Of a DNA stretch of 64,000 nucleotides, positions 7,914 to 25,473 are shown in pieces. Position numbers and translations under genes: made by a program. Positions within the stretch are counted from its first letter, which is position 1, and each line of letters begins with the position of its first letter. Location: assembly GCF_000737695.1 (NCBI RefSeq), contig NZ_JPRM01000013.1, positions 1 to 64,000 of the forward strand, in the 5' to 3' direction. This DNA is from Flavobacterium hydatis. Its GTDB lineage: Bacteria; Bacteroidota; Bacteroidia; Flavobacteriales; Flavobacteriaceae. The notes beneath the pieces are model-generated. The model saw only the letters and a program-made list of their open reading frames with translations, ran no database searches and had not been told where the DNA came from.

Positions 7914-7953
7914 AGTACATTTTAGAGCTTAAAATAAATTAGAAATAAGCATA

Positions 7954-8016: not shown

Positions 8017-8052
8017 GTAAGAATATATTCTTTGGTGACTAATTAGGAAATC

Positions 8053-8092: not shown

Positions 8093-8096
8093 ATTT

Positions 8097-9083: not shown

Positions 9084-9100
9084 TATGTTTTTATTTGGGT

Positions 9101-9108
9101 CAAAAATA
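9101..9108 (-). promoter_or_regulatory. TAnnTTTG box before the duplicated lipoprotein
   Basis: On the minus strand this reads TATTTTTG, 18 bp before the ATG at 9083. Confidence 0.45.
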
Positions 9109-9156
9109 GTGAAAAAATTGATAATTGATATTTAAGAATAGACAATTGATATTTCA

Positions 9157-9164
9157 TAACTTTG
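9157..9164 (+). promoter_or_regulatory. TAnnTTTG box abutting the cysteine desulfurase start
   Basis: TAACTTTG ends five bases before the ATG at 9170. Transcription starting about five bases past the box would give a leaderless or almost leaderless mRNA. It also argues against the upstream in-frame start at 9125. Confidence 0.5.
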
Positions 9165-9169
9165 CCACA

Positions 9170-10300: not shown

Positions 10301-10322
10301 CAATCGTTAATTATCAATTAGT
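10285..10322 (+). terminator. 17-bp perfect palindrome after the cysteine desulfurase
   Basis: Arms ACTAATTGATAATTAAC (10285-10301) and its complement (10306-10322) with a 4-base loop. It covers the stop codon and lies between convergent genes. No T-run follows. The TTGATAATT motif recurs near 9120 and 62640. Confidence 0.55.
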
Positions 10323-10328
10323 TCTAAA

Positions 10329-10901: not shown

Positions 10902-10952
10902 AAGTTTGAATTTAAATGAGAAATATTTTTAAATAATAACAGTAAACTGATA

Positions 10953-12029
10953 TTACGATGTTAGTTTGTTTATAATTTGAACAATTTTCTCTAAATCTTC
11001 AGGAGTAAGTCCTACGTAAAGCGGTAAACATACTATTCGTGATGCGATAGATTCAGATATAGGCATTACATCACCTTTTGTGTAATCGATGGTGTTTAGC
11101 GATGGATAGAAATAACGTCTAGGAACTATATTTTCTTTTTGTAATTCTTCTTGAACTCTTAATAATGTAGTTTCAGAATCAAACAATAAAGGATAATAGC
11201 TATGATTCCAGGCAGTGTTTTCTCTAATTTTTATGCTCTTTAAGTTGCTGAAATTTAGATTTTCATTGTAAAAATCAGTTACTTTTTTTCTTTCAGAAAT
11301 AATGTGTTCCATATATGGGAAAATTGCTAATCCCATAGCTGATTGTAATTCAGATATTTTAGCATTTATTCCGAGTCCATGAAAAGCAAGAGGACCATTA
11401 TGTCCAAAATTGTGACTGTAAAATAATTGATGCTGTGTTTCATCATCATTACAGAACATGGCTCCACCTTCTCCTGTATGGAATAATTTAGTAGCATGAA
11501 AACTACAAGTGCTTACATCTCCAAAATTAAAGATAGATTGGTTGTTGTATGTAACGCCAAAACAATGTGCAGCATCATAAATAACTTTAAGATTGTGTTT
11601 TTTTGCAATAGCTTCTATGATATTTACATGACATGGATTCCCGAAAACATGAGTTGCTAATATTGCAGTTGTTCTAGGAGTTATTGCAGCTTCAATCTTA
11701 GTTTCATCTATTGTTAAATATTCAGGATGAATGTCTACAAAAACAGGAGTACAATTTTCCCACACAATTGCAGCCGAAGTGGCAACATATGAAAAAGGGG
11801 TTGTTATTATTTCACCTCCTTTACCAAATAACTTTAATGCAATTTGTATTGGGATTGTACCGTTATTAGTAATTGTTAGGTTAGAAACACTAAGATAATC
11901 TTTAAGTTTTTGTTCTAGTTCTAATGTCAGTTCACCGCGGTTTGTGAGCCAAGCTTTATCCCACGCACGTTTTACATAAGAATTGTATTCTTCTTGTGGA
12001 GGTAAAAAAGTTTTGGTTACAGGAATCAT
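10953..12029 (-). CDS. DegT/DnrJ/EryC1 sugar aminotransferase, VioA-like
   Basis: A 358-residue PLP aminotransferase. The N-terminal MIPVTKTFLPP and TNRGELTLELEQ segments are typical of nucleotide-sugar aminotransferases, and the PLP lysine is in SFHATKLFHTGEGGA near residue 180. It probably transfers an amino group from glutamate to a 4-keto-6-deoxy sugar nucleotide, as VioA and WecE do, giving an amine that can be N-acylated. The gene is divergent from the acyl-carrier-protein operon across a 256-bp spacer. This supports a role as acceptor producer for that pathway; the exact sugar is not shown by the sequence. Confidence 0.85.
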   Translation of the reverse strand: MIPVTKTFLPPQEEYNSYVKRAWDKAWLTNRGELTLELEQKLKDYLSVSNLTITNNGTIPIQIALKLFGKGGEIITTPFSYVATSAAIVWENCTPVFVDIHPEYLTIDETKIEAAITPRTTAILATHVFGNPCHVNIIEAIAKKHNLKVIYDAAHCFGVTYNNQSIFNFGDVSTCSFHATKLFHTGEGGAMFCNDDETQHQLFYSHNFGHNGPLAFHGLGINAKISELQSAMGLAIFPYMEHIISERKKVTDFYNENLNFSNLKSIKIRENTAWNHSYYPLLFDSETTLLRVQEELQKENIVPRRYFYPSLNTIDYTKGDVMPISESIASRIVCLPLYVGLTPEDLEKIVQIINKLTS

Positions 12030-12079
12030 TTAATTATGGATTTAGTGAGTTTAATTAACCGTTAAGGGTAAACTATTGT

Positions 12080-12087
12080 TATATTTG
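12080..12087 (+). promoter_or_regulatory. TAnnTTTG box before the acyl operon
   Basis: TATATTTG lies 198 bp before the acyl-carrier-protein ATG, so the operon may have a long leader of about 195 bases. Confidence 0.45.
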
Positions 12088-12154
12088 CGGGGTAAAAATA
12101 GGAAAAGAAACCTAATTTATTAGTATAAGTCAATATTATAAAAGAAGAAGAAAT

Positions 12155-12197
12155 ATTCTTAAAGTCAGACTTGTTTGAACAACAATATTTTAAGAAT
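12155..12197 (+). other. Possible hairpin in the acyl-operon leader
   Basis: ATTCTTAAA (12155-12163) can pair with TTTAAGAAT (12189-12197), and flanking A/G-rich and T/C-rich tracts can extend the stem. It lies in the long untranslated leader. There is no match to a riboswitch I know, and the pairing is short. Confidence 0.3.
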
Positions 12198-12285
12198 GGT
12201 TTTTCTTGTACAATCAGGAACATTTTTTATAGACTTATTACAGAATTTAAATACATAATAAACCCAAAATAAAATTAAGAATACT

Positions 12286-12516
12286 ATGGAAATCAACACT
12301 TTTTTGCAAAATTTTGCAGACATTTTAGATGATACAGATGCAACATTAATAAAACAAGAAACTGTTTTTAGAGATTTAGAAGAATGGGATTCATTAACAG
12401 CTTTATCATTAATTGCTATGGCAGATGAAGAATATTCAGTAAAATTAACTGGAGATGATATTAAATCTTCAAATACATTAAACGATATCTTCGAAATAAT
12501 AAAAAATAAAGGGTAA
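12286..12516 (+). CDS. Acyl carrier protein, pathway-specific
   Basis: A 76-residue acyl carrier protein. Ser36 in EWDSLTAL is the phosphopantetheine attachment site. The surroundings differ from the housekeeping form, which usually has DSLDTVEL, so this is probably a dedicated carrier. It is the first gene of a tight operon with two ketosynthases, a Rieske oxygenase, a reductase and a NeuD-like acyltransferase. The next gene starts five bases after its stop. It would hold the growing short acyl chain; loading by malonyl transferase and phosphopantetheinyl transferase must come from elsewhere. Confidence 0.9.
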   Translation: MEINTFLQNFADILDDTDATLIKQETVFRDLEEWDSLTALSLIAMADEEYSVKLTGDDIKSSNTLNDIFEIIKNKG

Positions 12517-12521
12517 TTGAA

Positions 12522-13577
12522 ATGGCTACTTTTTCAGTAAATAATATTGCAATAAAAGGTATTTCATGTTGCGTTCCTAAAAATACAGAACGCAATATTG
12601 ATTTAGATCTATTGACACAAGAAGAAATTCAGAAATTCATTGATGCAACAGGCGTTGAAGAGCGACGTATTGCAACCAAGGAGATTTGTACTTCTGATTT
12701 GTGTTGTGAAGCTGCTGAAAAATTAATCAAAGATTTAAATTGGCAGAAAGAAGGAATAGAAATTTTAGTTTTTGTTTCGCAAACTGCCGATTATATTTTA
12801 CCCGTTTCTGCGGCTATACTTCAGGACAGATTAGGATTATCGACAAATTGTATTGCTTTTGATGTGCCATTAGGATGTTCAGGCTACGTTTACGGTATGT
12901 CGATAATTGCTAGTATGATGAATTCAACCGGAATCAAAAAAGGATTGCTTTTGGCTGGAGATACTAGTAGCAAATTACTTTCGAAAACAGATAAAAGTAC
13001 CGTTCCGCTTTTTGGAGATGGAGGTAGTGCAACAGCATTTGAACTTGATGAAAAAGCAGAACGTTTGCTTTTTGATTTAGGTACAGATGGTTCAGGTTAT
13101 AAAACGATAATCGTAAATGATGGAGGTTCTAGAAACAGAACAAATTCTGATTCCTTAACCTATCATACTATTTCGCCAGGAATCGAAAGAAATGCTTGTC
13201 AGCTAATTTTAGACGGAATGGATGTTTTTAGTTTTGGGATCTCACAAGCTCCTAAGACCGTAAATAAACTTATCGAAAAATTTGAAATCGATAAAGATGC
13301 TATAAATCATTTTGTATTTCATCAGGCAAATTTGATGATGAACAAAATGATTGTTAAAAAACTAAAACTACCCGTAGAGAAAGTTCCGTATTCTTTAAAA
13401 GAATTTGGTAACACATCATCTACAACAATTCCTTTAACAATAGTAACGGAATTAAAAGATAGCCTTACCAATACTACTCAGGATTTAATTCTATGCGGAT
13501 TTGGAGTTGGTTTATCTTGGGGAACAGCCAAAGTAAAATTGGATAATGTTGTGATTTCAGATTTAATAGAAATATGA
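12522..13577 (+). CDS. Ketoacyl-ACP synthase III family, copy 1
   Basis: A 351-residue FabH-like thiolase-fold enzyme with the full catalytic triad: Cys119 (PLGCSGYVYG), His267 (FHQAN) and Asn297 (FGNTSS). It should condense a short acyl starter with malonyl-ACP. It overlaps the Rieske gene by four bases (ATGA) and follows the acyl carrier protein gene by five, so the products are made together. A second, diverged copy lies two genes downstream. The housekeeping FabH is usually beside plsX or rpmF, which are not here, so a specialised role is inferred. Chain length is not predictable from the sequence. Confidence 0.9.
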   Translation: MATFSVNNIAIKGISCCVPKNTERNIDLDLLTQEEIQKFIDATGVEERRIATKEICTSDLCCEAAEKLIKDLNWQKEGIEILVFVSQTADYILPVSAAILQDRLGLSTNCIAFDVPLGCSGYVYGMSIIASMMNSTGIKKGLLLAGDTSSKLLSKTDKSTVPLFGDGGSATAFELDEKAERLLFDLGTDGSGYKTIIVNDGGSRNRTNSDSLTYHTISPGIERNACQLILDGMDVFSFGISQAPKTVNKLIEKFEIDKDAINHFVFHQANLMMNKMIVKKLKLPVEKVPYSLKEFGNTSSTTIPLTIVTELKDSLTNTTQDLILCGFGVGLSWGTAKVKLDNVVISDLIEI

Positions 13578-14662
13578 TCAAAAATTTAAATTACATAGAC
13601 GAAGCGGTTTATCAAAAAGAGAAAGATTTGTTTTTTGATGAATCTTGGATATTAGTTGCTCATAAAAATGAATTATTAAACAATAATGATTTTGTAACTT
13701 TTGAGTACTATGGAGATAAAATTTTTGTCCAAAACTTTAATGGTACAATAAAGTCTTTTCAAAATGTGTGTTTGCACAGATTTAATACAATACATCAGGA
13801 ACCTTATGGAAATAGAGTTTCTTCTTGCTTATACCATAACTGGACGTATGGCAAAAAAGGTAATGTAGTAGGACTCATGTGTCGAAACTCATTTGAGAAA
13901 GATGATATAAACGAATTAAGACTTAAAGAATACGAAGTTGGTTATTGCGGAGATTTTATTTTTATAAAATTAAATAATCAGCTAGATAAAAATTTAGAGC
14001 AGTATTTAGGAAACATATTTACTCCGCTAGAAGATATAAGTAAACATTTTGGTTCTAAAACAATCGATTATACAATTGAACATAATGTAAATTGGAAACT
14101 TTTGGTCGAAAATGTTTTGGAGTGTTACCATTGTACTTCAGTACATGAAAATTCATTTGCAAAAATGGGATTTGGTTCCGTTTCTCCAGAAAAGTTTGAT
14201 TTTTATGATGCACATAGCTGGTGCGAATTCCCTAAAGGAGAAAGCGCAAAACAGAGTAAAATTATAGAAAAGTCATTATCAAGCAGAACGTTTAAACCGC
14301 AAGGATATTTACATTTTTATATTTATCCTAATGCATTTATAAGTTCGGTAGAAGGAAAAGGGTTTTATTTTGGTTTTATGCTTCCAGAATCCCCTTCAAA
14401 AACAAATTTAAGAGTGCGTTATTTTGCTCCTAAATTTGATAAAGAGCTAAGCGAGTCAGAGCAAAATATTATTGATTTTATTAATAATAGTTCCAATGAA
14501 TCCTTAGATTTAGTTTTAAATGAAGATAAAAAGATCATTGAAAATATTCAGTCGAATTTAGTAAAATTTAAAGACAGCTCACCAATATTTGGCGATGAAG
14601 AATTTAGAATTTTAAAGTTTTACGAGTACTTTAATGGTAAAAAAGAATTAAAAGATATATAA
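13574..14662 (+). CDS. Rieske-type oxygenase, alpha-subunit-like
   Basis: A 362-residue Rieske non-heme iron oxygenase. The [2Fe-2S] ligands are Cys66 and His68 (CLHRF) with Cys85 and His88 (CLYHNW). The mononuclear iron site has Glu183-x2-His186-x4-His191 (LECYHCTSVH), with a likely Asp in LNEDKKIIE near residue 289. The layout resembles the carnitine/betaine and choline monooxygenase branch. It would hydroxylate or otherwise oxidise a substrate using O2 and electrons from a reductase not encoded here. Position between a ketosynthase and a reductase suggests the acyl chain or the amino sugar as substrate, which is inference. Confidence 0.88.
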   Translation: MIKNLNYIDEAVYQKEKDLFFDESWILVAHKNELLNNNDFVTFEYYGDKIFVQNFNGTIKSFQNVCLHRFNTIHQEPYGNRVSSCLYHNWTYGKKGNVVGLMCRNSFEKDDINELRLKEYEVGYCGDFIFIKLNNQLDKNLEQYLGNIFTPLEDISKHFGSKTIDYTIEHNVNWKLLVENVLECYHCTSVHENSFAKMGFGSVSPEKFDFYDAHSWCEFPKGESAKQSKIIEKSLSSRTFKPQGYLHFYIYPNAFISSVEGKGFYFGFMLPESPSKTNLRVRYFAPKFDKELSESEQNIIDFINNSSNESLDLVLNEDKKIIENIQSNLVKFKDSSPIFGDEEFRILKFYEYFNGKKELKDI

Positions 14663-15405
14663 TGAATCCATTTGATTTATCAGGAAAAAAAATAATAGTA
14701 ACCGGAGCATCTTCGGGAATTGGTTATGAAACTTGTTTAGCAATAAAAAGACAAGGAGGAACTTTTATAGCCATAGCAAGACGTAAAGATTTTCTCGAAA
14801 AATTAATAGAGGAATGTGGTGATGAAAACAGCTTTATAGTTGCAGATTTATCTAAAATGGAAGATATCAAAGCTATTGTAGATACCATCGAGAATATTGA
14901 TGGAATTGTACATTCGGCAGGAGTTGTAACATTAGCCCCAGTTAAATTTTATTCAGAAGAATTAATGAATGAAATGCGAGCGATAAACTTTGACTCAATT
15001 GTATATCTGGTTAATTTAATTTTTAAAAAGAAAAAAATAAATAAAGGAAGCTCAATTGTTTTAGTTTCATCGATTGCCGGTTTATTTGGCATGAAAGGAA
15101 ACGGAATTTATGCAGCAAGCAAAGGAGCGTTAATTGCAATCTCAAAAGTTTGGGCTGCAGAATTTGCTACAAGTAAAACGCGTGTAAATTGTGTTTCGCC
15201 AGGAATGGTTAAAACCGAAATAACATCTAAGTCTATTGAAGATTTATCTTTAGAAGTGATTCAGCAAGATGAAAAGAAATATCCTTTGGGTTATGGAGAT
15301 CCAATTCAGGTTGCAAATCCAATTGTTTTTTTACTATCAGATGCAAGTAGCTGGATTACGGGACAAAATATAGTTTTAGACGGAGGAAGAACATCAACGA
15401 TATAA
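14662..15405 (+). CDS. Short-chain dehydrogenase/reductase, FabG-like
   Basis: A 247-residue classical SDR. The NAD(P)-binding TGASSGIG spans residues 14-21 and the catalytic Ser-Tyr-Lys set is seen in VSSIAG and YAASK. The C-terminal WITGQNIVLDGG is typical of FabG. It would reduce a 3-ketoacyl-ACP to 3-hydroxyacyl-ACP. Its start overlaps the Rieske stop by one base and the second ketosynthase starts eight bases after its stop. FabG-like function in this pathway is inferred from context; sugar-ketone reduction is an alternative. Confidence 0.88.
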   Translation: MNPFDLSGKKIIVTGASSGIGYETCLAIKRQGGTFIAIARRKDFLEKLIEECGDENSFIVADLSKMEDIKAIVDTIENIDGIVHSAGVVTLAPVKFYSEELMNEMRAINFDSIVYLVNLIFKKKKINKGSSIVLVSSIAGLFGMKGNGIYAASKGALIAISKVWAAEFATSKTRVNCVSPGMVKTEITSKSIEDLSLEVIQQDEKKYPLGYGDPIQVANPIVFLLSDASSWITGQNIVLDGGRTSTI

Positions 15406-15413
15406 TTCTGACA

Positions 15414-16424
15414 ATGAAAGCTAATATAAAAGCCATATCGTATTATTTACCCGAAGCTATTTTATCTAATGATTTAATTAATCAGGAATTTCCAGAATGG
15501 GATATTGAAAAAATCAGTTCAAAAACAGGAATAAATTCTCGCCATATAAGTGCAAATGATGAATTTTCATCAGACATGGCTGTAAAAGCTGCTGAGAAAT
15601 TATTTGTTGAGCATAATATAGATAAATCAACTATAGATTTTTTATTGTTTTGCACCCAAAGTCCAGATTATTTCTTACCAACGACAGCCTGTATTATTCA
15701 GGAAAAATTAGGATTAAATACCACTATAGGAGCCTTAGATTTTAATTTAGGATGCTCAGGGTTTGTATATGGTTTGAGTTTAGCAAAAGGACTTATTGCT
15801 GGAGGAATGGCAAAAAATGTTTTGTTGATTACTTCAGAAACCTATTCGAAATTTATTCACCCAAAAGACAAAAGCAATAAAACTATTTTTGGAGATGCTG
15901 CAGCTGCAACGTTAATAAGTAGTGAAGAAGGATTTTGTTCTATTGGTAATTTTATTTTTGGGACTGACGGAAAAGGAGCAGAGAATCTAATTGTAAAGCA
16001 AGGAGGAATGCGTTTCCCAGTTTCAAACGATAATGAAGATATTACGGATGAGTTTGGAAATGTTCGAAATGATAAAAATTTATTCATGAACGGAACAGAA
16101 ATTTTCAATTTTACAGGAGAGTTTGTTCCAAAACTTACAGAGTCAATTTTAGAAAAATCTAATCTAACCAAAGATGATATAGATTTATTTATTTTTCATC
16201 AGGCAAATAAGTATATGCTTAATCATTTGAGAAAAAAAATCAAAATACCAGAAGAAAAATTCTTTATCTCAATGCAACATTGTGGTAATACCGTTTCATC
16301 TACAATTCCGATAGCATTGTATGAAGCTCAAAAAGAAGATAGACTAGCAAATTGTCATAATTTAATATTAGCTGGTTTTGGAGTAGGATATTCTTGGGCA
16401 GCATGTAATTTAATAATTGACTGA
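15414..16424 (+). CDS. Ketoacyl-ACP synthase III family, copy 2
   Basis: A 336-residue FabH-like enzyme with intact Cys114 (LGCSGFVYG), His262 (FHQAN) and Asn292 (CGNTVSS). It is clearly diverged from copy 1 and 15 residues shorter, so it probably accepts a different acyl primer, such as the reduced product of the first round. It sits between the reductase gene and the NeuD-like acyltransferase gene, overlapping the latter by one base. Two rounds of condensation and reduction on one carrier would give a six-carbon dihydroxy chain; that is a hypothesis. Confidence 0.9.
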   Translation: MKANIKAISYYLPEAILSNDLINQEFPEWDIEKISSKTGINSRHISANDEFSSDMAVKAAEKLFVEHNIDKSTIDFLLFCTQSPDYFLPTTACIIQEKLGLNTTIGALDFNLGCSGFVYGLSLAKGLIAGGMAKNVLLITSETYSKFIHPKDKSNKTIFGDAAAATLISSEEGFCSIGNFIFGTDGKGAENLIVKQGGMRFPVSNDNEDITDEFGNVRNDKNLFMNGTEIFNFTGEFVPKLTESILEKSNLTKDDIDLFIFHQANKYMLNHLRKKIKIPEEKFFISMQHCGNTVSSTIPIALYEAQKEDRLANCHNLILAGFGVGYSWAACNLIID

Positions 16425-17059
16425 TGAAGAATTTAATAATAATAGGAGCAAGAGGATATGGTCGTGAGGTTCATGATCTGGCAAAGCAATGTTCGGGATA
16501 TAATACGGAGTATGTTTTAAAAGGCTTTTTGGATGATAAGTCAGATGCGCTTGCGGGATTTGAAAATTACCCAGAAATTATTTCATCAGTAGAGAGTTAT
16601 GAAATTCAGGATAATGATGTTTTTGTTTGCGCTTTAGGAAGTGTAAAATGGAAAAAGCATTATGTAGAATTGGTTCTTGCTAAAGGAGGGAAGTTTATTA
16701 ATTTAATTCACCCTTCGGTAATTTTAAATACAAATGCTATTCTTGGTAATGGATTAATAGTTTTTATGAATTCCAATATAAGCAACGATTGTGTTATCGA
16801 TGACTTTGTTACCATACAAGGTTTTGTAGGATTAGGACATGATACAAAGTTGGGTAAATGGTCTCATTTAAACGCTTATTGTTTTACAGGAGGGTTTGTG
16901 GTATTAGAAGAAGAAGTTTGTTTAAATACAAGAGCTACAATATTGCCAAACGTCATAGTACGCAAAGGAGCTACAGTTGGCGCAGCAAGTTTAGTTATTA
17001 GAAACGTAAAAGAAGGTACAACAGTTTTTGGAGTTCCAGCTAAAAAGCTTGAATTTTAA
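16424..17059 (+). CDS. NeuD/PglD-family sugar N- or O-acyltransferase
   Basis: A 211-residue protein. The N-terminal Rossmann-like domain (NLIIIGARGYGREV, residues 3-16) is followed by left-handed beta-helix repeats (about residues 95-200, with IGAR/LGN-type turns) and ends in TTVFGVPAKKLEF, as in NeuD and PglD. Relatives transfer acetyl from acetyl-CoA to a UDP- or dTDP-amino sugar. In this operon it may use the acyl-ACP made upstream and the amine made by the divergent aminotransferase. The acyl donor is inferred. Confidence 0.85.
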   Translation: MKNLIIIGARGYGREVHDLAKQCSGYNTEYVLKGFLDDKSDALAGFENYPEIISSVESYEIQDNDVFVCALGSVKWKKHYVELVLAKGGKFINLIHPSVILNTNAILGNGLIVFMNSNISNDCVIDDFVTIQGFVGLGHDTKLGKWSHLNAYCFTGGFVVLEEEVCLNTRATILPNVIVRKGATVGAASLVIRNVKEGTTVFGVPAKKLEF

Positions 17060-17136
17060 ATTAAAAACAAAAGAATCAATTGTCTTGCTGGTAGAAATAT
17101 TGAGGAGATGATTAACTATATATTAGATATAATTTC

Positions 17137-18093
17137 ATGAGAGATCAAAATACCATTATTTCAAGTTGGACAAATAATGATACAAAACCAGTTGTAAGTA
17201 TTTTATGTGATACATATAATCATGAAGGGTTTATCAAGGAAACCCTTGAAGGTTTTTTGAGTCAAGTAACGACATTTCCTTTTGAAATAATTATACATGA
17301 TGATGCTTCTACAGATAAAACTGCGATTATAGTAAAAGAGTTTGTAGATAGATATCCATTAATCATTAAGCCTATCTTCGAAAAAGAAAATCAATATTCT
17401 AAAAAAGTTAATTTTTGGAGTGATCTTACTTTCCCGATGGCGCAAGGAAAGTATATTGCTTTGTGCGAAGGGGATGATTATTGGATAGACTCATCCAAAA
17501 TACAAAAGCAGGTTGATTTCTTAGAAAGCAATGATGATTATGTAATAACATGGACAGATTTTTTTACTAAAAAAGGGACAGAATTAGTTCCTAATGATTT
17601 TAAAGATACTCTGCCTTCAGTTTATACGATTGATTTTGATAATCTATTTGTTCCTTATTGTACGTATACTTTAACTTGTCTTTTTAGAAAAACTGCTGTT
17701 GATCCGCTTGATTATAAAAAGTTTACTTACGGAAAAGATAATACACTTTATGCTTTGGCATTATGTCACGGAAAAGGCGCTTACATGAATTTTCAAGGAG
17801 CTGTTTATAGATGGCATCCGGGAGGAATATATTCTTTAAAAACAGCTTTCTTTCAGCGATATTCATCATATCTCAATCTAAAAGAAATATATGAATGCAT
17901 TCCAGAAGCTAGAACAAAGAATGTAGCAAAAACTATGAATTCGTTATTGAAATACTCGGCACAAGAAGCTTTAAAATTAGTTAAAGATAAAAATCAGGAT
18001 AAAACAGAACCTAAAAAAGCAATTAAAGAATTTTTAGCGAATGCTGGTTTTTTAACTAAGATAAAATTTCTTTGGCGTTATATTAAAGCCTGA
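17137..18093 (+). CDS. Family 2 glycosyltransferase
   Basis: A 318-residue GT2 enzyme. The N-terminal VSILCDTYNHEGFIKETLEG (about residues 23-42), HDDASTDKT and CEGDDYW segments give the nucleotide-sugar and metal-binding motifs. No membrane segment is apparent. It starts 77 bp after the NeuD-like gene and is probably the last gene on that strand in the operon. It resembles transferases of O-antigen or capsule clusters. Donor and acceptor cannot be told. Confidence 0.85.
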   Translation: MRDQNTIISSWTNNDTKPVVSILCDTYNHEGFIKETLEGFLSQVTTFPFEIIIHDDASTDKTAIIVKEFVDRYPLIIKPIFEKENQYSKKVNFWSDLTFPMAQGKYIALCEGDDYWIDSSKIQKQVDFLESNDDYVITWTDFFTKKGTELVPNDFKDTLPSVYTIDFDNLFVPYCTYTLTCLFRKTAVDPLDYKKFTYGKDNTLYALALCHGKGAYMNFQGAVYRWHPGGIYSLKTAFFQRYSSYLNLKEIYECIPEARTKNVAKTMNSLLKYSAQEALKLVKDKNQDKTEPKKAIKEFLANAGFLTKIKFLWRYIKA

Positions 18094-19110
18094 TTATTTC
18101 TTTAGGTTAAATATAGATTTAAACAAAAGAACAATTTTATCTAATGTATTGATTTTCTGAAAAAGTACCTTCTCGTTTTTTCTTAAATGGTTATAATAAG
18201 AAAGATTGTATTTACTAGCATTACGAATGGTACGTATTAATGTTCTTTCTATGTGTTCTTCAAGTTCAGGATGATCAAAATTTTTCAGCTTTACATTTTG
18301 CGAAAGCAGAAATTTTGAAGCATTTATAACTTCAATAACTTCATCAGGAAGAAGTCCTCTTTTTACTGAAACGGCGTTTATATAAAAGTCTATTTTGGCA
18401 TCTACAGGATCTATTCCAAATTCAGTCATTTGGTTTGCTTTTACTCTTTTTATAGACTTGTTTACATTATCAATTTTTGTTTTGCTAATGTTGTTGTTAT
18501 GTAGTCTGTAATTTAATAAAGATTCCTGGATATTATGAAACTTAGTTTTAGGTAATAATCTGCTCCATAAATCATAATCTTCGACAGGAACATAATCATT
18601 ATTGAATTCTAAACCAGATAAAGCTTCTTTTTTTAGCATTACCGTTGGATTTCCAATACCGCAGCTATGTAAAAATGAAATTTTTATATGATCATGATCT
18701 TCACCATGTCTGATAACCTTATTTTTCTTTGATCCAAAAAATGTAAACCAGGTTCCACATACTCCAATCTCAGGATTGTTTTTTAGGACTTCTACTTGTT
18801 TCTCAAAGCGAGTTGGTAAAGCAATATCGTCTGCATCCATAAGAGCAATAAAATCGCCTTTTGCAATTTGCATTCCTTCGTTTCTAAGGTTTGCAGGACC
18901 AACGTTTATTTTTTTGTCAATTATAACAATTCTAGAATCTTTCTGCTGGCATTGTTTAATTACTTCTAAACTATTATCAGTAGATTTATCATTCAGGATT
19001 AGTAATTCGAAGTCAGTATAAGTTTGGTTTAGAATGCTTTCTATGCTTTCTTTTAAAAAAGACTCTGCATTATATACGGGCATTATAACAGAGATTTTTG
19101 GAGTGTGCAT
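18094..19110 (-). CDS. Family 2 glycosyltransferase
   Basis: A 338-residue GT2 enzyme with ISVIMPVYNAESFLKESIES at residues 6-25, NDKSTDNSLE and the DxD-type ALMDADDIALP near residue 94. A C-terminal helical part of 130 residues follows. It is convergent with the preceding glycosyltransferase with no spacing between stops, and has its own TAnnTTTG box 26 bp upstream (19136-19143). It probably acts in lipooligosaccharide or O-chain assembly. Confidence 0.85.
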   Translation of the reverse strand: MHTPKISVIMPVYNAESFLKESIESILNQTYTDFELLILNDKSTDNSLEVIKQCQQKDSRIVIIDKKINVGPANLRNEGMQIAKGDFIALMDADDIALPTRFEKQVEVLKNNPEIGVCGTWFTFFGSKKNKVIRHGEDHDHIKISFLHSCGIGNPTVMLKKEALSGLEFNNDYVPVEDYDLWSRLLPKTKFHNIQESLLNYRLHNNNISKTKIDNVNKSIKRVKANQMTEFGIDPVDAKIDFYINAVSVKRGLLPDEVIEVINASKFLLSQNVKLKNFDHPELEEHIERTLIRTIRNASKYNLSYYNHLRKNEKVLFQKINTLDKIVLLFKSIFNLKK

Positions 19111-19135
19111 GATATTTGTTATTAACAGAAAAAGG

Positions 19136-19143
19136 CAAATATA
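19136..19143 (-). promoter_or_regulatory. TAnnTTTG box before a glycosyltransferase
   Basis: On the minus strand this reads TATATTTG, 26 bp before the ATG at 19110. Confidence 0.45.
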
Positions 19144-19198
19144 TAATATTACTTTTTCAATTGTGGTTAGCTCTAAAAATAATTTTAATTAATATTAG

Positions 19199-19206
19199 TA
19201 CATTTG
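19199..19206 (+). promoter_or_regulatory. TAnnTTTG box before the 19.2-kb gene
   Basis: TACATTTG lies 19 bp before the ATG at 19226. Confidence 0.5.
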
Positions 19207-19225
19207 TGCCTATAAAAATAAATAA

Positions 19226-20089
19226 ATGAAAAAAATTCAAGTTGGCTTTTTGGTTTCTTATGATTATAGTTATCTTAAAACTGCTCTTCCTCAGGTGTAT
19301 AAAGAATCGGATTCGATTTTTTTAGCAATTGATAAAGAAAGAAAAACTTGGAAAGGGGAGTCTTTTATTATAGAAGACGAATTTTTTCAATGGATTAAAT
19401 CGGTAGATGTAGATTCAAAAATCCAAATTATAGAAGAAAATTTTTATTGCCCAGAGTTAAGCAGCATGGAATGCGAAGTTCGTGAGCGTAAAATATTGTC
19501 AGAAAAAATGGGTATTGGTAATTGGTTAATCCAATTAGATTGTGATGAGTATTTTTTGGAGTTCAAAAAATTTATCGCTTTTTTAAGAACTAAAGATCAT
19601 TTTCTTGACAACCCGAAGAAAAATCAAATTCAAATATCACCTTATCTTGTAAATCTTTATAAAAGAGTTGATACTGGGATGTTGTATGTTGAGAAAACAT
19701 CGAAAGTTATTGTAGCTACAAATTATCCAAGTTATAAAATTGGAAGAAGAACACGTAAGAGAGTAATTTATTACAAAGGATTGGTTCTTCACGAATGTAT
19801 ATCACGCTCAAAGGAAGAACTAGAAATGAAGTTTAGTAATTGGGGGCATGATTTTGAGATAAATAAAAAGGCACTTATTGAAAAGTGGGAAAGTGTAAAT
19901 GAGCATAATTACAAAACCATATTCGATTTTTATTATTTAGAGCCTGAAAGATGGAAAAGACTAGCTTTTGTTAAAGGAAGTACGTTTGAAGAAATAAAAG
20001 AAAATCTAGATTTAGAAAAGATAATGCCTTCGTCTTTTTTTATATGGAAGAAAAACTTTGGACAATGGTTTAAAGATTTCTTCGTGTAA
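19226..20089 (+). CDS. Glycosyltransferase-like protein of unknown specificity
   Basis: A 287-residue soluble protein with GT2-like features. VGFLVSYDYSYLKTALPQVY opens it in place of the usual VSVI-TYN, and a DxDE metal-binding motif occurs in NWLIQLDCDEYFLEF near residue 107. The C-terminal part has VLHECISRSKEELEMKF, resembling the acceptor region of WaaE-like enzymes. It has its own promoter box and a hairpin terminator, so it is a single-gene unit in the glycan region. Enzyme activity is inferred from the motif and context. Confidence 0.7.
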   Translation: MKKIQVGFLVSYDYSYLKTALPQVYKESDSIFLAIDKERKTWKGESFIIEDEFFQWIKSVDVDSKIQIIEENFYCPELSSMECEVRERKILSEKMGIGNWLIQLDCDEYFLEFKKFIAFLRTKDHFLDNPKKNQIQISPYLVNLYKRVDTGMLYVEKTSKVIVATNYPSYKIGRRTRKRVIYYKGLVLHECISRSKEELEMKFSNWGHDFEINKKALIEKWESVNEHNYKTIFDFYYLEPERWKRLAFVKGSTFEEIKENLDLEKIMPSSFFIWKKNFGQWFKDFFV

Positions 20090-20120
20090 TTTTATATATA
20101 AAATTTAAATAGTATCAAGT

Positions 20121-20151
20121 AACAGCAAGTTTTTAGTCAAGACTTGCTGTT
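20121..20151 (+). terminator. Hairpin after the 19.2-kb gene
   Basis: AACAGCAAGT (20121-20130) pairs with ACTTGCTGTT (20142-20151) with an 11-base loop, followed by a T-rich stretch. Confidence 0.7.
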
Positions 20152-20190
20152 TCTTTATAATTTATTTCATTTATGAAAACAGCATATTAA

Positions 20191-20221
20191 TTTGAAGTGT
20201 TAACTTCTATGCGTATTTTTG
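20191..20221 (+). promoter_or_regulatory. Two-part promoter before the WaaP-like kinase
   Basis: TTTG (20191-20194) and TATTTTTG (20214-20221) are separated by 19 bp, close to the Bacteroidota -33/-7 layout. The ATG is at 20244. Confidence 0.55.
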
Positions 20222-20243
20222 TTTTTGTATAAAAATCTCTTAA

Positions 20244-21008
20244 ATGAATTTCAAAATAAATCCGGTTTTTGCTAACGAGACAACATCAATACTTGATAAG
20301 ATTAAAGCATTTAATAATTCAGGTACTCTTTTAGGTAATGGTCAGCGTAATGTTATTAAATTATTTGATTTAAATGATAAGGTCGTTAATATAAAGTCAT
20401 TTAAAATTCCCAATTTAATAAATAAAATAGCCTACAAGTATTTTCGAAAGTCTAAAGCTAGGCGTTCTTTTGAGTATGCTACAATTTTATTAGAAAAAGG
20501 AATTGGAACACCGTTGCCAATTGCTTATTTAGAGAATTATAATTGGTTAGGGCTAAGAGATAGCTATTATGCTAGCGAGCATTTAATAACCGAACTTACT
20601 TTTAGAGAACTTGTAGAGATTCCTGATTATCCAGATCACGAAAATATTTTGAGACAATTTACCCGATTTAGTTTTGGTTTACATGAAAAAGGAATAGAAT
20701 TTTTAGATCATTCTCCCGGTAATACATTAATCAAAAAAAATGTAGATGGAAATTATAGTTTTTTCTTGGTAGATTTAAATAGAATGGAATTTCATAATTC
20801 TATGAGTTTTGAAATGCGAATGAAGAATTTATGTAGATTGACACCTGTTAAAGAAATGGTTGCTGTAATGAGTAACGAATACGCTAAACTATACGGTGAA
20901 TCTGAGCAAAAAATATTCAATACGTTATGGAAATATACTTCAGATTTCCAGGAGCATTTTTATAGGAAAAAACGATTAAAAAAGAAACTTAAATTCTGGA
21001 AGAAATAA
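20244..21008 (+). CDS. WaaP/Kdo-kinase-like protein
   Basis: A 254-residue protein with a lipopolysaccharide-kinase-like fold. A glycine-rich start (GTLLGNGQRNVIKLF) is followed by a candidate ATP lysine in VVNIKSFKIPN, a catalytic-loop equivalent in EFLDHSPGNTLI and a metal-binding FLVDLNRMEF. The usual HRD or HGD-type loop is replaced by DHSPGN, which keeps the Asn. The C-terminus is very basic (RKKRLKKKLKFWKK), fitting contact with membrane phospholipid. It would phosphorylate a Kdo or heptose of the core oligosaccharide. It forms its own unit with promoter and terminator inside the glycosyltransferase region. Confidence 0.78.
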   Translation: MNFKINPVFANETTSILDKIKAFNNSGTLLGNGQRNVIKLFDLNDKVVNIKSFKIPNLINKIAYKYFRKSKARRSFEYATILLEKGIGTPLPIAYLENYNWLGLRDSYYASEHLITELTFRELVEIPDYPDHENILRQFTRFSFGLHEKGIEFLDHSPGNTLIKKNVDGNYSFFLVDLNRMEFHNSMSFEMRMKNLCRLTPVKEMVAVMSNEYAKLYGESEQKIFNTLWKYTSDFQEHFYRKKRLKKKLKFWKK

Positions 21009-21083
21009 TCAGAACTTTTTTTTGTTTATACTCATGAAAATAATATTGAAATATTAAGGTAGATTGCTTTTTTTTTCTTAATC

Positions 21084-21115
21084 AACTCGTTTTTTTTAGA
21101 CAAACGAGTTTTTTT
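21084..21115 (+). terminator. Hairpin-T terminator after the WaaP-like gene
   Basis: AACTCGTTT (21084-21092) pairs with AAACGAGTT (21102-21110) and is followed by a run of T to 21115. Confidence 0.85.
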
Positions 21116-21174
21116 GTAGAAATAATTTACAAACTATTTTTTAGAGATATATAATTGTAACAAAAGATTAAGGA

Positions 21175-21201
21175 TTGGCTAATCAAAAAGTTATATTTTT
21201 G
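21175..21201 (+). promoter_or_regulatory. Two-part promoter before a WaaE-like gene
   Basis: TTG (21175-21177) and TATTTTTG (21194-21201) are separated by 16 bp. The GTG that could start an extended protein at 21201 lies on this box, so the ATG at 21225 is preferred. Confidence 0.5.
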
Positions 21202-21224
21202 TGTTTCATATATTAAATTTTAAA

Positions 21225-21974
21225 ATGAAGATTAGTGGATTGATTATTACTTTCAATGAAGAAAAAAATATAGGAAAATGTATTGATGCTTTATTTAGAA
21301 TCTGCGACGAAATAATTGTTGTTGATTCTTTTAGTAAAGACAAAACAGCCTCTATTGCAAAAGAAAAAGGAGCAATTGTTATTGAGCAATCTTTTTTGGG
21401 AGATGGACCACAACGTACATATGGTTTGTCATATTGCAAGAATGATTGGATTCTTAATCTTGATGCTGATGAATTTTTAGATAAAGACGCTGAAGACTTT
21501 ATTTTAAAAGAAAAATATTTAGAAGATAATTATGATGCTTTTAGTTTTAGAGTAAAAAACTTTTTGGGAGATAAACTTATAGATTTCTCAGGCTGGTATC
21601 CAGATTATAAAGTTCGTTTTTTTAATAAAAAATCAGCCCATCCTTCTAGTTCGATTGTGCATCAAAGCATAGTAACTCGAAGAGAAAAAAAAGTACCAGT
21701 GCATATTCTTCATTACGGCTGGGAATCACTAGAGCAAATTATTTCAAAGAAAAACCAATATTCTACTTGGCATGCTCAGCAACTTTTTGACCAAGGAATA
21801 AGAATAACGTTTTTTAAGCCTGTACTTAATGGAACTGTTGCCTTTGTTCGTTGTTATTTTTTTAAGAGAGGTATCTTTAATGGAATAGATGGATTATCAA
21901 TTGCAATGATTCAGAGTTTTTTTTCTTATATGAAGTATGCTAAACTTTTAAAGCTTCAAAAACGAAAAGTATAA
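21225..21974 (+). CDS. WaaE/KdtX-like family 2 glycosyltransferase
   Basis: About 249 residues from ATG 21225 (MKISGLIITFNEEKNIGKC). It has VDSFSKDKTASIA, the conserved QRTYGLSYCKNDWILNLDADEF with an intact DAD metal site, and a C-terminal segment with FFKRGIFNGIDGLSIAM that may touch the membrane. WaaE-like enzymes add glucose or another sugar to the inner core. It is one of three paralogues within 4.2 kb; the others are on the minus strand at 23136-23909 and 24686-25423. It is convergent with the GT9 gene 14 bp away. Confidence 0.88.
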   Translation: MKISGLIITFNEEKNIGKCIDALFRICDEIIVVDSFSKDKTASIAKEKGAIVIEQSFLGDGPQRTYGLSYCKNDWILNLDADEFLDKDAEDFILKEKYLEDNYDAFSFRVKNFLGDKLIDFSGWYPDYKVRFFNKKSAHPSSSIVHQSIVTRREKKVPVHILHYGWESLEQIISKKNQYSTWHAQQLFDQGIRITFFKPVLNGTVAFVRCYFFKRGIFNGIDGLSIAMIQSFFSYMKYAKLLKLQKRKV

Positions 21975-21988
21975 AATTTATCAGATTT

Positions 21989-23056
21989 TTAAAGATTTCG
22001 TGTCATGAAAAAATCAATCTGACTCTTAAATAATTCAGGATTAAAATCTTGATAGAATAAAGCCGAATTACTTTTAATTTCCTTGTGTAAAATGTTATTA
22101 ATTAATTCAGGTTTAAAGTCATTTAAATGTACCGAAATGTTTTGCAATCCATCCTCGAAGGTTGCCCAGTCATTTTTCTCTACATAAGGTGAAAATATTG
22201 TAAAAGAAGGCTTGTTTAATGCTTTTGCCATGTTAATTGCTCCACCATCATTTCCTATAATTATATCACATTGATTCATTATACCAATAAATGATCTTAG
22301 GTTGCTACCTAATAAATCAAAATGTATTTTCTCTTGTGTACTTTTTGAGCATAAATCGAATACTTTTTGAGCGTCTTCAATTTGATTTGGGAAATAATTA
22401 AAAAGTATCGTTACGTCTTTATTTTCTGCAACATAGTCTACGACTTTCGCCATATATTCTAGAGGATATGTTTTTGATTTTTCACTTCCCAAAAGACTTA
22501 TCATCACAATTTTACGATCCTTACTTACTTTATGTTTGTCTAATAATGCAATTGCTTCCTGATCCTCTTCTTTGCTTACATACAATTTAGGAAAAGGGTC
22601 TATTGATGCATTATCGATATTAAGAGGTTTAAGTAATATAATTCTATTGTCTATTGCATATCCATATTTCGTTTCGTCATTACTCACAAGTCGTTTCATA
22701 TTGTGATTGTAGAATAAAGAAGAATACCATTTGTGGTATGATATCTTATATTCGGCACCAGAGAATATTGTTATTAAATTAGTCTCTAATTTGCCATATA
22801 CATCGATTAATATGTCATACTTATTAGATCTGATTTTAAAAATAAACTTAAATAATGATGAGTATGATTTTCTTATTTTCTCTTCTAATACAATTACAGA
22901 ATCAATATTTGGATTACCTATTAAAACATCTGTGCAATTAGAGTAACACATAAAATCGATAGTCGATTCTGGGTATTTCTTTTTTAGATTGTTGCATAGA
23001 ATTGTGCTAATAAGTACATCACCAATTCTTTTTTGTTGTATAACTAATATTTTCAT
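21989..23056 (-). CDS. Heptosyltransferase-like GT9 enzyme
   Basis: A 355-residue GT9 protein. MKILVIQQKRIGDVLISTIL is the typical N-terminus with the catalytic acid Asp13. The C-terminal donor-binding part has IGNDGGAINMAKALNKPSF near residues 270-290. Relatives (WaaC, WaaF, WaaQ) add heptose to lipopolysaccharide core. Many Bacteroidota lack core heptose, so the sugar may differ. It probably follows the WaaE-like gene at 23136-23909 in the same direction. Confidence 0.88.
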   Translation of the reverse strand: MKILVIQQKRIGDVLISTILCNNLKKKYPESTIDFMCYSNCTDVLIGNPNIDSVIVLEEKIRKSYSSLFKFIFKIRSNKYDILIDVYGKLETNLITIFSGAEYKISYHKWYSSLFYNHNMKRLVSNDETKYGYAIDNRIILLKPLNIDNASIDPFPKLYVSKEEDQEAIALLDKHKVSKDRKIVMISLLGSEKSKTYPLEYMAKVVDYVAENKDVTILFNYFPNQIEDAQKVFDLCSKSTQEKIHFDLLGSNLRSFIGIMNQCDIIIGNDGGAINMAKALNKPSFTIFSPYVEKNDWATFEDGLQNISVHLNDFKPELINNILHKEIKSNSALFYQDFNPELFKSQIDFFMTRNL

Positions 23057-23135
23057 TATTTGGGGACGAGTTTAATAAAAAACCGGATTATGTTTTTGTT
23101 GGATTCTAGGGGCAAAAATAGCGATTTAAAAGGGA

Positions 23136-23909
23136 TTATTCCATTTTATTGTGTGCTAACCAAAGAATCAAATAGCGTTTTAATACTGCAAATGAGTTTA
23201 TGTAGGCAAGAATGTAACCTTCTTTACCATCAAGAAATCCCAAACGAATAAAATATTGATTCATGAAACTGAAAAAAGGTTTCATTAAAAAATGATAAAA
23301 ATTTGGTTTTACATTTTTAGCATACAATTCCAGAGCTTCTTTTTTGCTTAATAAGCTTAACTGGTAATTGTATTCATCAAAACTCTTATAAGCATAAGAG
23401 TCTATTCGGTTTTTTAATAAATTAGATCCTCCAAATAATGTTATGGATGGGTTACTTTCTTCATTACTAGAAAATGAATGTCTTTTTTTATCAAAAAGAA
23501 AAATTCTTTTTTTGTTATTAAATTCGCCATGTTCTATTTTTTTTTTAAAGAAAAACAGCGTTTGTTTAATGTAGTATAGAGGATTACTTTTTGGATCAGA
23601 AATTTTGGTTAAAATTTCGTCTTTAAGTTCAGGCGAGATATATTCATTTATGTCTAGCAGTAGTATCCAATCATTTTGTGCCTGATTTATAGCTAGATTT
23701 TGTTGTTGCGCTTTATTATCGGTAGTTTGTATAATAACAGTTGCGCCAAGTTCTTTTGCAATAGCAACTGTTTTATCTGTGCTATTGTTATCTATAAGGA
23801 TAATTTCATGAGCAAACGACACATTCTCAATAAGTTTCTTTATGTTGTTTTCTTCGTTAAAACAAAATGCCAAAACGCTAATTTTGGGAACTATTACATT
23901 TTGAGACAT
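23136..23909 (-). CDS. WaaE-like glycosyltransferase with altered DxD
   Basis: About 257 residues from ATG 23909 (MSQNVIVPKISVLAFCFNEE). An upstream in-frame start at 23978 would overlap the divergent deacetylase gene and its promoter. It has IDNNSTDKTVAIAKELGA and a QQQNLAINQAQNDWILLLD segment. Where its two paralogues carry DADE, this one has DINE, so one metal-binding acid is replaced. The C-terminal YFIRLGFLDGKEGYILA matches the family. Activity may be retained or lost. It lies 79 bp upstream of the GT9 gene on the same strand. Confidence 0.82.
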   Translation of the reverse strand: MSQNVIVPKISVLAFCFNEENNIKKLIENVSFAHEIILIDNNSTDKTVAIAKELGATVIIQTTDNKAQQQNLAINQAQNDWILLLDINEYISPELKDEILTKISDPKSNPLYYIKQTLFFFKKKIEHGEFNNKKRIFLFDKKRHSFSSNEESNPSITLFGGSNLLKNRIDSYAYKSFDEYNYQLSLLSKKEALELYAKNVKPNFYHFLMKPFFSFMNQYFIRLGFLDGKEGYILAYINSFAVLKRYLILWLAHNKME

Positions 23910-23947
23910 AAAATCAATTTTGTGCAATATTAATAATTTTAGATTTA

Positions 23948-23955
23948 TAACTTTG
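23948..23955 (+). promoter_or_regulatory. TAnnTTTG box before the deacetylase
   Basis: TAACTTTG lies 16 bp before the ATG at 23972. Confidence 0.5.
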
Positions 23956-23971
23956 TATAAAATCAAACAAA

Positions 23972-24694
23972 ATGTCAAGACTCCCTATTTTAATGTATCA
24001 TAATATTTGTCAATCTGAAAATGAAAGTAATAAGTTGACAGTCTCAGTTCAGAAACTAGAACAACAATTTCAGTATTTGAAAGACAATAATTATGAAACA
24101 TTTCATTTTGCAGAATTAGAAAAAATGAAATCTATTCCTAAAAAGAGTATTGTTCTTACTTTTGATGATGTTACGGTGAATCAGCTTGTTTTTGCTGCTC
24201 CATTATTAGAAAAATTCAATTTAAAAGCTAGTTTTTTTATTCCCTTTTCATATATAGGAAAAACAGATTTATGGAACGAAAAATCAGCATCTTTGGGCGA
24301 AAAAATCATGACAATTGAACAATTAAAAGGGTTAAACGATAGGATAGAATTGGGATATCATTCATATGAGCATAAAAAATATAGTTTATTATCTGCCTCA
24401 GAAATAGAAAATGATTTTCTAAAGTGTGAAGAGGTGATTAAAAATAATGATTTAAAAGTATATCCAGCATTGGCTTATCCATATGGTAATTATCCTAAAA
24501 AAGGTGATGAAAATGATCAGTTTAAACGTCTAGTTGCAAAGAATAAAATAAAGTTCGGTTTAAAAATAGGTAATCGTCCCAATAACTTTCCTTTTAAGGA
24601 TAACTATGAAATCAAGCGAATAGACATTAAAGGTCATGATAGCTTGATGACTTTTAGGTTAAAAATAAAATTTGGTAAATTAAAGTTATTCTAG
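23972..24694 (+). CDS. Polysaccharide deacetylase family protein
   Basis: A 240-residue NodB-homology protein. It starts ILMYHNICQ, has the catalytic and metal acids in VLTFDDVTVN near residue 65, the metal histidines in LGYHSYEHKKYS near residue 130, and the third motif in ALAYPYGNYPKK near residue 168. No signal peptide is visible, so it acts in the cytoplasm or at the inner face on a lipid-linked sugar. It would remove acetyl from an N-acetyl sugar. Its end overlaps the convergent WaaE-like gene by nine bases. Confidence 0.88.
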   Translation: MSRLPILMYHNICQSENESNKLTVSVQKLEQQFQYLKDNNYETFHFAELEKMKSIPKKSIVLTFDDVTVNQLVFAAPLLEKFNLKASFFIPFSYIGKTDLWNEKSASLGEKIMTIEQLKGLNDRIELGYHSYEHKKYSLLSASEIENDFLKCEEVIKNNDLKVYPALAYPYGNYPKKGDENDQFKRLVAKNKIKFGLKIGNRPNNFPFKDNYEIKRIDIKGHDSLMTFRLKIKFGKLKLF

Positions 24695-25423
24695 GTCTTT
24701 CTCGATTAGCATCATTTTTGCATATCTTGAGAATACTCCATAGGCGTCTATCGCTGCAGCAGCAAGACCTGGAACGCCATCTAGGTATACTCTTTTTACA
24801 ATGTAAGTATGAAAAAAACGATAAAAAGGCTTGAAAAAGAGTAGGAACAGCGTTACTTTTTTTCCTTTATCAGCAGACATTTTTGCTTGAAACCAAGCAT
24901 ATTTGTCTTTTTTACTTATAAAATGAAATAAACCCTTATAGGTGTAATGTTCCATGTAGTTTTTTAGAACACCAGGTTTTGATTTTAGTACTAATTTTTC
25001 ATGTACTTCATTTTCAAAAATCAAGTTGCTATTCTTCATCAAACGAACAACTTTGTCTGTATAATGAAATAAAAAGCGATCCATGAAAAAATGAGGAAAC
25101 CAAATTTTATAAGTATCAAATTTATCCGATTCGATACTTTTTAAAATTTCTACTCTAAGTTTATCAGTAACCCTTTCGTCTGCATCTAAAAATAATATCC
25201 AATCTCCAGTTGCAAAGCCTATTCCATAGTTTCTTTGGCTGCAGTAATTGTCAAATTTTCTAGAGATCAGTTTAACGCCTAAATCTGTAGCAATTTTTTG
25301 TGTAGCATCAGTACTATTAGAGTCTAAAACAATAATCTCATCAGCAAATGAAACGGATTTTATTGCATCGGCAATATAAAACTCTTCATTATAAGTAAGT
25401 ATGATAACGGATAGTTTTTTCAT
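24686..25423 (-). CDS. WaaE/KdtX-like family 2 glycosyltransferase
   Basis: About 245 residues from ATG 25423 (MKKLSVIILTYNEEFYI). It has LDSNSTDATQKIA, the CSQRNYGIGFATGDWILFLD segment followed by ADE (intact DxD), and the C-terminal VKRVYLDGVPGLAAAAI. It is the third WaaE-like paralogue of the region. The dapD gene starts upstream on the same strand with 50 bp between stop and start. It probably adds a core sugar. Confidence 0.88.
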   Translation of the reverse strand: MKKLSVIILTYNEEFYIADAIKSVSFADEIIVLDSNSTDATQKIATDLGVKLISRKFDNYCSQRNYGIGFATGDWILFLDADERVTDKLRVEILKSIESDKFDTYKIWFPHFFMDRFLFHYTDKVVRLMKNSNLIFENEVHEKLVLKSKPGVLKNYMEHYTYKGLFHFISKKDKYAWFQAKMSADKGKKVTLFLLFFKPFYRFFHTYIVKRVYLDGVPGLAAAAIDAYGVFSRYAKMMLIEKDLE

Positions 25424-25473
25424 TTCTTTACTTAACATACTTACTTATAATTATAGAGTTTAATAAAATAATA

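Follow-up and report, generated by a model that had tools for sequence, protein, structure and literature searches.

What acyl group would a bacterium build with a pair of ketosynthases (KAS), an acyl carrier protein (ACP), a reductase and a PglD-like acyltransferase, all encoded within one 4.8-kb block of a surface-glycan locus, and what might a Rieske oxygenase in their midst do to it? These questions are raised by a six-gene module of Flavobacterium hydatis, which lies in the 64,000-nucleotide stretch analysed here (contig NZ_JPRM01000013.1, positions 1 to 64,000; the window). Comparison of sequences and gene neighbourhoods leads us to put a probability of roughly 0.6 on a pathway in which a hydroxyacyl-ACP would be made in two rounds of extension, oxidised further by the Rieske enzyme and placed by the NeuD-type enzyme on a 4-amino-4,6-dideoxyhexose. 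The core of such a pathway is already known in outline, and a gene set for a 3,5-dihydroxyhexanoyl group is in print as a proposal. The new part is the proposed Rieske step, with the restriction of its gene to modules that have two ketosynthases and the exchange of that gene in step with the acyltransferase.

A complete acyl-chain module

An earlier note, made from the letters of this DNA alone, described six tightly packed genes with complete active sites, and our open reading frames, Pfam domains, coordinates and scripted residue check agree with it on both counts. All six genes lie on the forward strand. The ACP (12286..12516; PP-binding PF00550, E 1.8e-5) carries S36 in a DSL motif and is followed by KAS1, a FabH-type ketosynthase with the triad C119-H267-N297 (12522..13577; PF08541/PF08545; PDB 4efi, E 1e-70), and by the Rieske oxygenase, of the alpha-subunit type (13574..14662; PF00355 and PF00848; PDB 6y8j, E 6.4e-25). 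Then come a FabG-like ketoreductase of the short-chain dehydrogenase/reductase (SDR) family with YAASK at residues 150-154 (14662..15405; PF13561/PF00106, adh_short), a second FabH-type ketosynthase, KAS2, with C114-H262-N292 (15414..16424; PF08541/PF08545; PDB 3gwa, E 3.1e-111), and the NeuD/PglD/VioB-type N-acyltransferase, here called NeuD, with H139 in a GHD motif (16424..17059; PglD_N and Hexapep; PDB 4m98 and VioB 7txp). From ACP to NeuD the junctions are, in order, +5, -4, -1, +8 and -1 bases. The Cys-His-Asn triad that marks condensing KAS III enzymes is complete in KAS1 as in KAS2, and KAS2 scores 284.9 bits against NCBIfam NF006829 (cut-off 249). According to Pfam, the module is flanked on one side by a divergent sugar aminotransferase gene of the DegT/DnrJ/EryC1/StrS family (DegT; DesI/VioA-like; 10953..12029, reverse strand; PF01041 DegT_DnrJ_EryC1) and on the other by a run of glycosyltransferase (GT2 family and GT9), polysaccharide deacetylase and further genes (17137..25438) that mark a surface-glycan locus.

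The Rieske gene accompanies a second ketosynthase

KAS1, KAS2 and a Rieske alignment each served as query against 299 Flavobacterium genomes, and gene neighbourhoods were then inspected. The KAS1 search gave 24 matches at E 1e-70 and the KAS2 search 27 genomes at E 1e-80, which together make 37 genomes. The Rieske search, which is independent of the choice of KAS1 query, returned 18 of the 299 genomes at E 1e-40, 17 of them at 1.6e-139 or lower; G017 (E 1e-42, a 453-aa frame) was set aside as another family with its neighbours unread. Modules with two ketosynthases stand in 20 genomes, 17 with the Rieske gene and three (G220, G170 and G258) without, and modules with one ketosynthase stand in 16 genomes (10 with KAS1 only, 6 with KAS2 only), none of which has a Rieske gene. 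The gene is therefore confined to two-ketosynthase modules (17/17 versus 0/16; Fisher p 1.3e-7 for genomes that are not independent of one another). These counts leave G044, whose contig breaks off at the module, out of the one-ketosynthase class, and they include only 4-kb stretches of G154, G202 and G235. The O-antigen-type KAS1, 34-36% identical to that of the window, did not serve as a query, so some KAS1-only modules may be missed.

The 17 Rieske genomes fall into approximately five lineages: the window type including its swapped form (10 genomes), the O-antigen type (4), and G224, G126 and G045. The most direct comparison is offered by G170 and G258, where the order is sugar transferase-KAS2-ACP-KAS1-SDR-NeuD with no Rieske gene (the ACP of G170 was masked by an overlapping frame and recovered by tblastn), and by G103, G162, G249 and G242, which have the same order with a Rieske gene added between KAS1 and SDR. 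In all six, the sugar transferase adjoining the module belongs to PF02397. Beyond the genus, the Rieske protein at E 1e-50 matched only its own genome among 349 family-level genomes (237 genera) and only three, all Flavobacterium and its own included, among 247 phylum-level genomes (121 genera), a threshold that would miss more distant relatives.

Exchange of the Rieske-SDR pair and co-variation of the acyltransferase

With KAS1 as query, which reaches close relatives only, we recovered 20 named loci, all titled Flavobacterium; one of them, L025, belongs to the F. johnsoniae strain CI04. Nineteen are complete, and L022 was excluded from the counts of type because its contig stops inside KAS1. 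The same six-gene order, which the earlier note had suggested looking for in other genomes, is present in 15 of the 19, and the remaining four (L028-L031) have an exchanged inner pair. The Sua5-DegT-ACP-KAS1 neighbourhood is kept in 20/20 loci, with DegT adjoining the module in every one, and since the gene order recurs in this way across loci it is not a matter of chance.

In L028-L031 the interval between KAS1 and KAS2 holds a different SDR and a different Rieske gene in reversed order, and the two types are only 33% (Rieske) and 40% (SDR) identical. The Rieske protein of these four loci groups with the O-antigen type, that of L028 being 53-54% identical to those of L111 and L115. At the DNA level the window and the near relatives L028 and L029 are 81-98% identical before the exchanged block, 48-75% inside it, 83-96% in the bins of KAS2 and 77-84% in those of NeuD, which places the exchange at about 12950..15350 (bounds from 200-base bins) and takes in the 3' two thirds of KAS1 as well as the Rieske and SDR genes.

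The exchange has a counterpart outside the block. Across the 20 loci, window included, 24 columns of KAS1 and 10 of NeuD discriminate between the types, as against none in KAS2, DegT, Sua5 or csd; the ACP was readable in only 8 of the 20, longer overlapping frames having hidden it elsewhere. Among 720 kinship-matched sets of four loci the real set alone reaches the KAS1 and NeuD values, the next best being 3 and 1. Six further loci, which had no part in the choice of columns, follow their type in 140 of 144 KAS1 cells and 54 of 60 NeuD cells, with NeuD columns 28 and 68 failing. Three of the NeuD columns (136, 137 and 141) flank H139, which corresponds to the catalytic histidine in PglD and PerB. 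The co-variation of NeuD is poorly explained by simple linkage, as KAS2 lies in between and does not co-vary, and we infer that the Rieske enzyme, the SDR or both may shape the acyl group that NeuD handles. The further oxidation of the acyl chain that the earlier note ascribed to the Rieske protein gains support from this co-variation with the exchanged pair and from the restriction to two-ketosynthase modules. It might also be argued that KAS2 acts first and KAS1 second, as KAS1 and not KAS2 co-varies with the pair, but this is a weak indication because KAS1 adjoins the exchanged block.

The Rieske enzyme

The scripted check located a Rieske cluster site (C66/H68/C85/H88), a mononuclear iron site (H186/H191/D318) and a bridging E183, none of which varies across the 33 aligned rows (31 of them distinct). 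The protein thus has both the CxH...CxxH cluster and the 2-His-1-carboxylate iron site of a Rieske oxygenase alpha subunit. Its closest PDB sequence is CntA, the oxygenase subunit of carnitine monooxygenase (6y8j, with the E value above and only 91 bits), an enzyme that acts on a short aliphatic 3-hydroxy acid. The end of the phmmer alignment to CntA would make S310 an iron ligand, which we disfavour given the invariant D318 of the family alignment; the residue opposite S310 is one that we take to be the iron aspartate of CntA, and D318 stands eight residues before a Gln, presumably as that aspartate does.

According to two papers (PMC7948474, PMC10952381), CntA has a bridging glutamate, E205, a cysteine pair, C206/C209, and a tyrosine, Tyr203, that binds the quaternary amine. 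The bridging glutamate of CntA and other Group V Rieske oxygenases is also present here (E183, the equivalent of E205), and the window type shares the cysteine pair beside the iron site (C184 in 19 and C187 in 20 of the 33 rows, with Ser and Val in their place in 13). The aromatic residue of the CntA-like subgroup Va, in contrast, is replaced by V181 in the window and by Thr in the swapped type, which lacks the cysteine pair as well. Because V181 takes the place of the cation-binding tyrosine, a quaternary amine is an unlikely substrate, and a non-cationic aliphatic one, such as a hydroxyacyl-ACP, is plausible. A further difference from CntA is that no cognate reductase gene adjoins the window Rieske gene. 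We found no paper on a Rieske enzyme in such a role, in a search that covered few subscription journals.

The probable acceptor sugar and a natural empty site

The divergent DegT protein is a probable maker of the 4-amino acceptor sugar, judging from its family and best PDB chain, 2po3 (E 3.8e-52; titled 4-dehydrase), which we take to be DesI. Both rmlA and rmlB are found elsewhere in the genome with scores over their cut-offs, and dTDP-4-keto-6-deoxyglucose is therefore probably available. In the O-antigen type the aminotransferase nearest the Rieske module is only 24-28% identical to the window DegT. This is no clean split by sugar, since G103 and G162 have a DesI-like DegT (74 and 77% identical to that of the window) with its own NeuD no more than about 15 kb from the Rieske module.

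A near relative, G004, offers a natural empty site. Its locus L181 retains DegT (96%), Sua5, csd and the glycosyltransferase genes and is without the module, G004 having given no match in the KAS1, KAS2 or Rieske searches. Similarity to the window runs over 10902-12204 at 92%, breaks off, and resumes at 17114, so that the block 12205..17113 is absent; between DegT and the first glycosyltransferase, L181 has at about 7960-8400 some 400 bases unlike the window module and with no long frame. Of 20 DegT regions retrieved, 14 have a plain NeuD next to the DegT gene; these NeuD proteins share 23-28% identity with their window counterpart, and the DegT proteins 68-79%. The two plain NeuD proteins that were scored both exceed the TIGR03570 cut-off, unlike the window NeuD, and the difference between plain and module NeuD fits a move away from the transfer of plain acetyl towards an acyl group made to order. 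Flavobacterium promoters are of the type TTG, 17-23 bases, TAnnTTTG; none was found between DegT and ACP, where a single TAnnTTTG box is present.

Comparison with known systems

An ACP-based acyl pathway that feeds an N-acyltransferase beside an aminotransferase, as the earlier note envisaged, has two precedents in the literature (PMC6519341, PMC3927599). The closer is the O-antigen locus of the fish pathogen Flavobacterium psychrophilum, where Cisar et al. 2019 (PMC6519341) propose, for the R1 group, the ketosynthases wfpC and wfpE, the ACP wfpD, the reductase wfpF and the PglD homologue wfpG as a type II fatty-acid-like route to a 3,5-dihydroxyhexanoyl group on Qui2NAc4N, the group itself having been observed by nuclear magnetic resonance. 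The earlier note cites this structure but not the published proposal for its genes. The two systems have in common two different ketosynthases, an ACP of their own, a ketoreductase, a PglD-like acyltransferase, a setting in a glycan locus and the genus. They differ in that the window has a Rieske gene (13574-14662), whereas the word Rieske is absent from the main text of PMC6519341. In that source, moreover, the acceptor is UDP-Qui2NAc4N, made via PglE/PglF, and the O-antigen cluster includes a PglC-like sugar transferase; the window departs from this order, with ACP-KAS1-Rieske-SDR-KAS2-NeuD and no adjoining sugar transferase. It is the order of G170 and G258 that fits the wfpB-G naming, in a comparison made by published description and gene names. 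The available part of PMC5601056 has nothing on R-group genes.

The second precedent is the viosamine island of Pseudomonas syringae, which decorates flagellin and comprises vioA, vioS, vioB, vioR, acp, vioM and vioT (PMC3927599). There vioS, vioR, acp and vioB, with one ketosynthase, go with 3-hydroxybutyryl-viosamine, and a vioR mutant is without modified viosamine. The island shares with the window an ACP, a KAS III, a ketoreductase, a VioB-like acyltransferase and a VioA-like aminotransferase, and differs in its single ketosynthase, its methyltransferase and the lack of a Rieske gene among the seven open reading frames described there. Between them, the P. syringae and F. psychrophilum cases pair a single ketosynthase with a C4 chain and two ketosynthases with C6. 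The O-antigens of Vibrio cholerae O3 and O100, compared by structure alone, carry 3,5-dihydroxyhexanoyl on QuiN4N according to PMC8074265 and PMC3210612, and this is the kind of N-acyl group to be expected from a Rieske-free pathway.

A proposed pathway and its alternatives

In the pathway that we favour, one KAS III would condense acetyl-CoA with malonyl-ACP, the SDR would reduce the 3-keto group, and the other KAS III would add a second two-carbon unit, which the SDR would reduce in turn to give a C6 hydroxyacyl-ACP; in the Rieske-free F. psychrophilum version this product would be 3,5-dihydroxyhexanoyl. The Rieske oxygenase would add one further oxidation to the ACP-bound chain, and NeuD would transfer the finished group to the 4-amine made by the divergent DegT enzyme. 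The acceptor would most likely be dTDP-4-amino-4,6-dideoxyglucose, and the local glycosyltransferases would then build the acylated sugar into a surface glycan. Chain length, the position and timing of the oxidation, the nature of the amine and the target glycan are the elements of this scheme that we infer.

Several observations weigh against it. With 14 of the 17 Rieske genomes in two lineages there are only about five independent cases, and three two-ketosynthase modules have no Rieske gene. The co-variation of KAS1 may be linkage to the exchanged block that it adjoins, and that of NeuD could stem from the reductase alone, the Rieske and SDR genes having been swapped together. The module encodes no reductase or ferredoxin to serve the Rieske enzyme. 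AlphaFold models of the Rieske enzyme (pLDDT 53.7) and NeuD (pLDDT 45.9) were poor, and no support is drawn from either. Finally, NeuD at 154.5 bits narrowly misses the TIGR03570 cut-off of 160.8, and the best NCBIfam match of DegT, DesI at 237 bits, is far under its cut-off of 650.

The joint swap also leaves room for a Rieske enzyme that acts after NeuD and hydroxylates the N-acyl group once it is attached to the nucleotide sugar or glycan; the SDR by itself could then cause the co-variation of NeuD. Animal CMAH is a functional precedent: a Rieske enzyme that hydroxylates the N-acetyl group of an N-acylated amino sugar, CMP-Neu5Ac, and needs its Rieske domain for activity. CMAH, however, has a beta-lactamase-like domain in addition, whereas the window protein combines the Rieske domain with Ring_hydroxyl_A as its catalytic domain, and the Rieske gene sits inside the acyl gene block, flanked by a ketosynthase and a reductase gene, in the window type as in the O-antigen type. 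This, too, speaks against late action, which we consider rather unlikely. A chain of C4 length, hydroxybutyryl with a Rieske-dependent hydroxylation, is improbable in our view. It would require that the second ketosynthase is non-elongating and serves as an acyltransferase or primer editor, an idea favoured by the fact that KAS1 and KAS2 each occur alone (in 10 and 6 genomes) and can each probably start a chain unaided; both nevertheless have the full catalytic triad, and in the published accounts two ketosynthases go with C6 and one with C4.

It seems slightly less probable again that the Rieske enzyme oxidises the sugar and that the acyl group is plain 3,5-dihydroxyhexanoyl. Rieske genes do occur in glycan loci alongside aminotransferases, and the DesI-like DegT near the G103 and G162 modules means that a sugar shared with the window type is possible, but the nearest aminotransferase differs between the window and O-antigen types and the presence of the Rieske gene tracks ketosynthase number instead. 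We think it very improbable that the product is a small metabolite or a lipid with no link to the glycan: ACP, ketosynthase, SDR and oxygenase genes are found in metabolite clusters too, but here NeuD and DegT flank the module, glycosyltransferase genes come after it, and in the 14 DegT regions described above a plain NeuD takes its place.

If oxidation of the ACP-bound chain is correct, an oxygenase class would be added to the bacterial sugar-acylation pathways, together with a Rieske enzyme whose substrate is probably held on a carrier protein. A broader view, which we put forward tentatively and at rather less than even odds, is that a Rieske family so far limited to Flavobacterium acts on short hydroxyacyl groups carried by a dedicated ACP, and that in-place swaps of Rieske-SDR pairs, each accompanied by a fitting acyltransferase, serve to diversify an N-acyl sugar of the bacterial surface, as a mix-and-match acyl code for glycans. 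The same gene order with and without a Rieske gene, one locus with two Rieske types and a near relative without the module are natural pairs that allow a direct test of chain structure, enzyme specificity and surface variation.

Variant modules and neighbouring genes

Several modules in the survey depart from these layouts. In G045 the Rieske gene is enclosed by two KAS III genes, one of which forms a long branch in the tree, and a third KAS III gene lies further off. An AMP-binding ligase and an extra PP-binding protein adjoin this Rieske module (L066, 4641-6207), an arrangement that would suit the loading of a free acid as primer. GNAT-family proteins stand beside the ACP in L063 (G220; 10241-10783) and L065 (G126; 5324-5842), where no NeuD adjoins the module, which suggests that acyltransferases of unrelated folds can stand in for one another. 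The KAS1/SDR/ACP module of L074 (G187; 7192-10665) is accompanied by a second ACP, an FkbH-type protein (TIGR01686, 286.8 bits) and a glyoxalase-like protein; possibly a glycerate-derived unit feeds a sugar-acyl pathway there. In L067 (G060; 6614-10632) an SDR-KAS1-ACP module lies by GNAT, GT2 and aspartyl/asparaginyl beta-hydroxylase-type (PF05118) proteins, the last perhaps an oxygenase of another kind within a module otherwise comparable, and L068 (G066) has a similar layout (PF05118 was scored in L067 alone).

As to the glycan itself, we would guess from gene content alone that lipopolysaccharide core is the product of this locus. Within the window, 20244-21008 encodes a 254-aa protein that recurs in relatives and has no Pfam match at E 1e-3; by eye it looks like lipopolysaccharide-core kinases.

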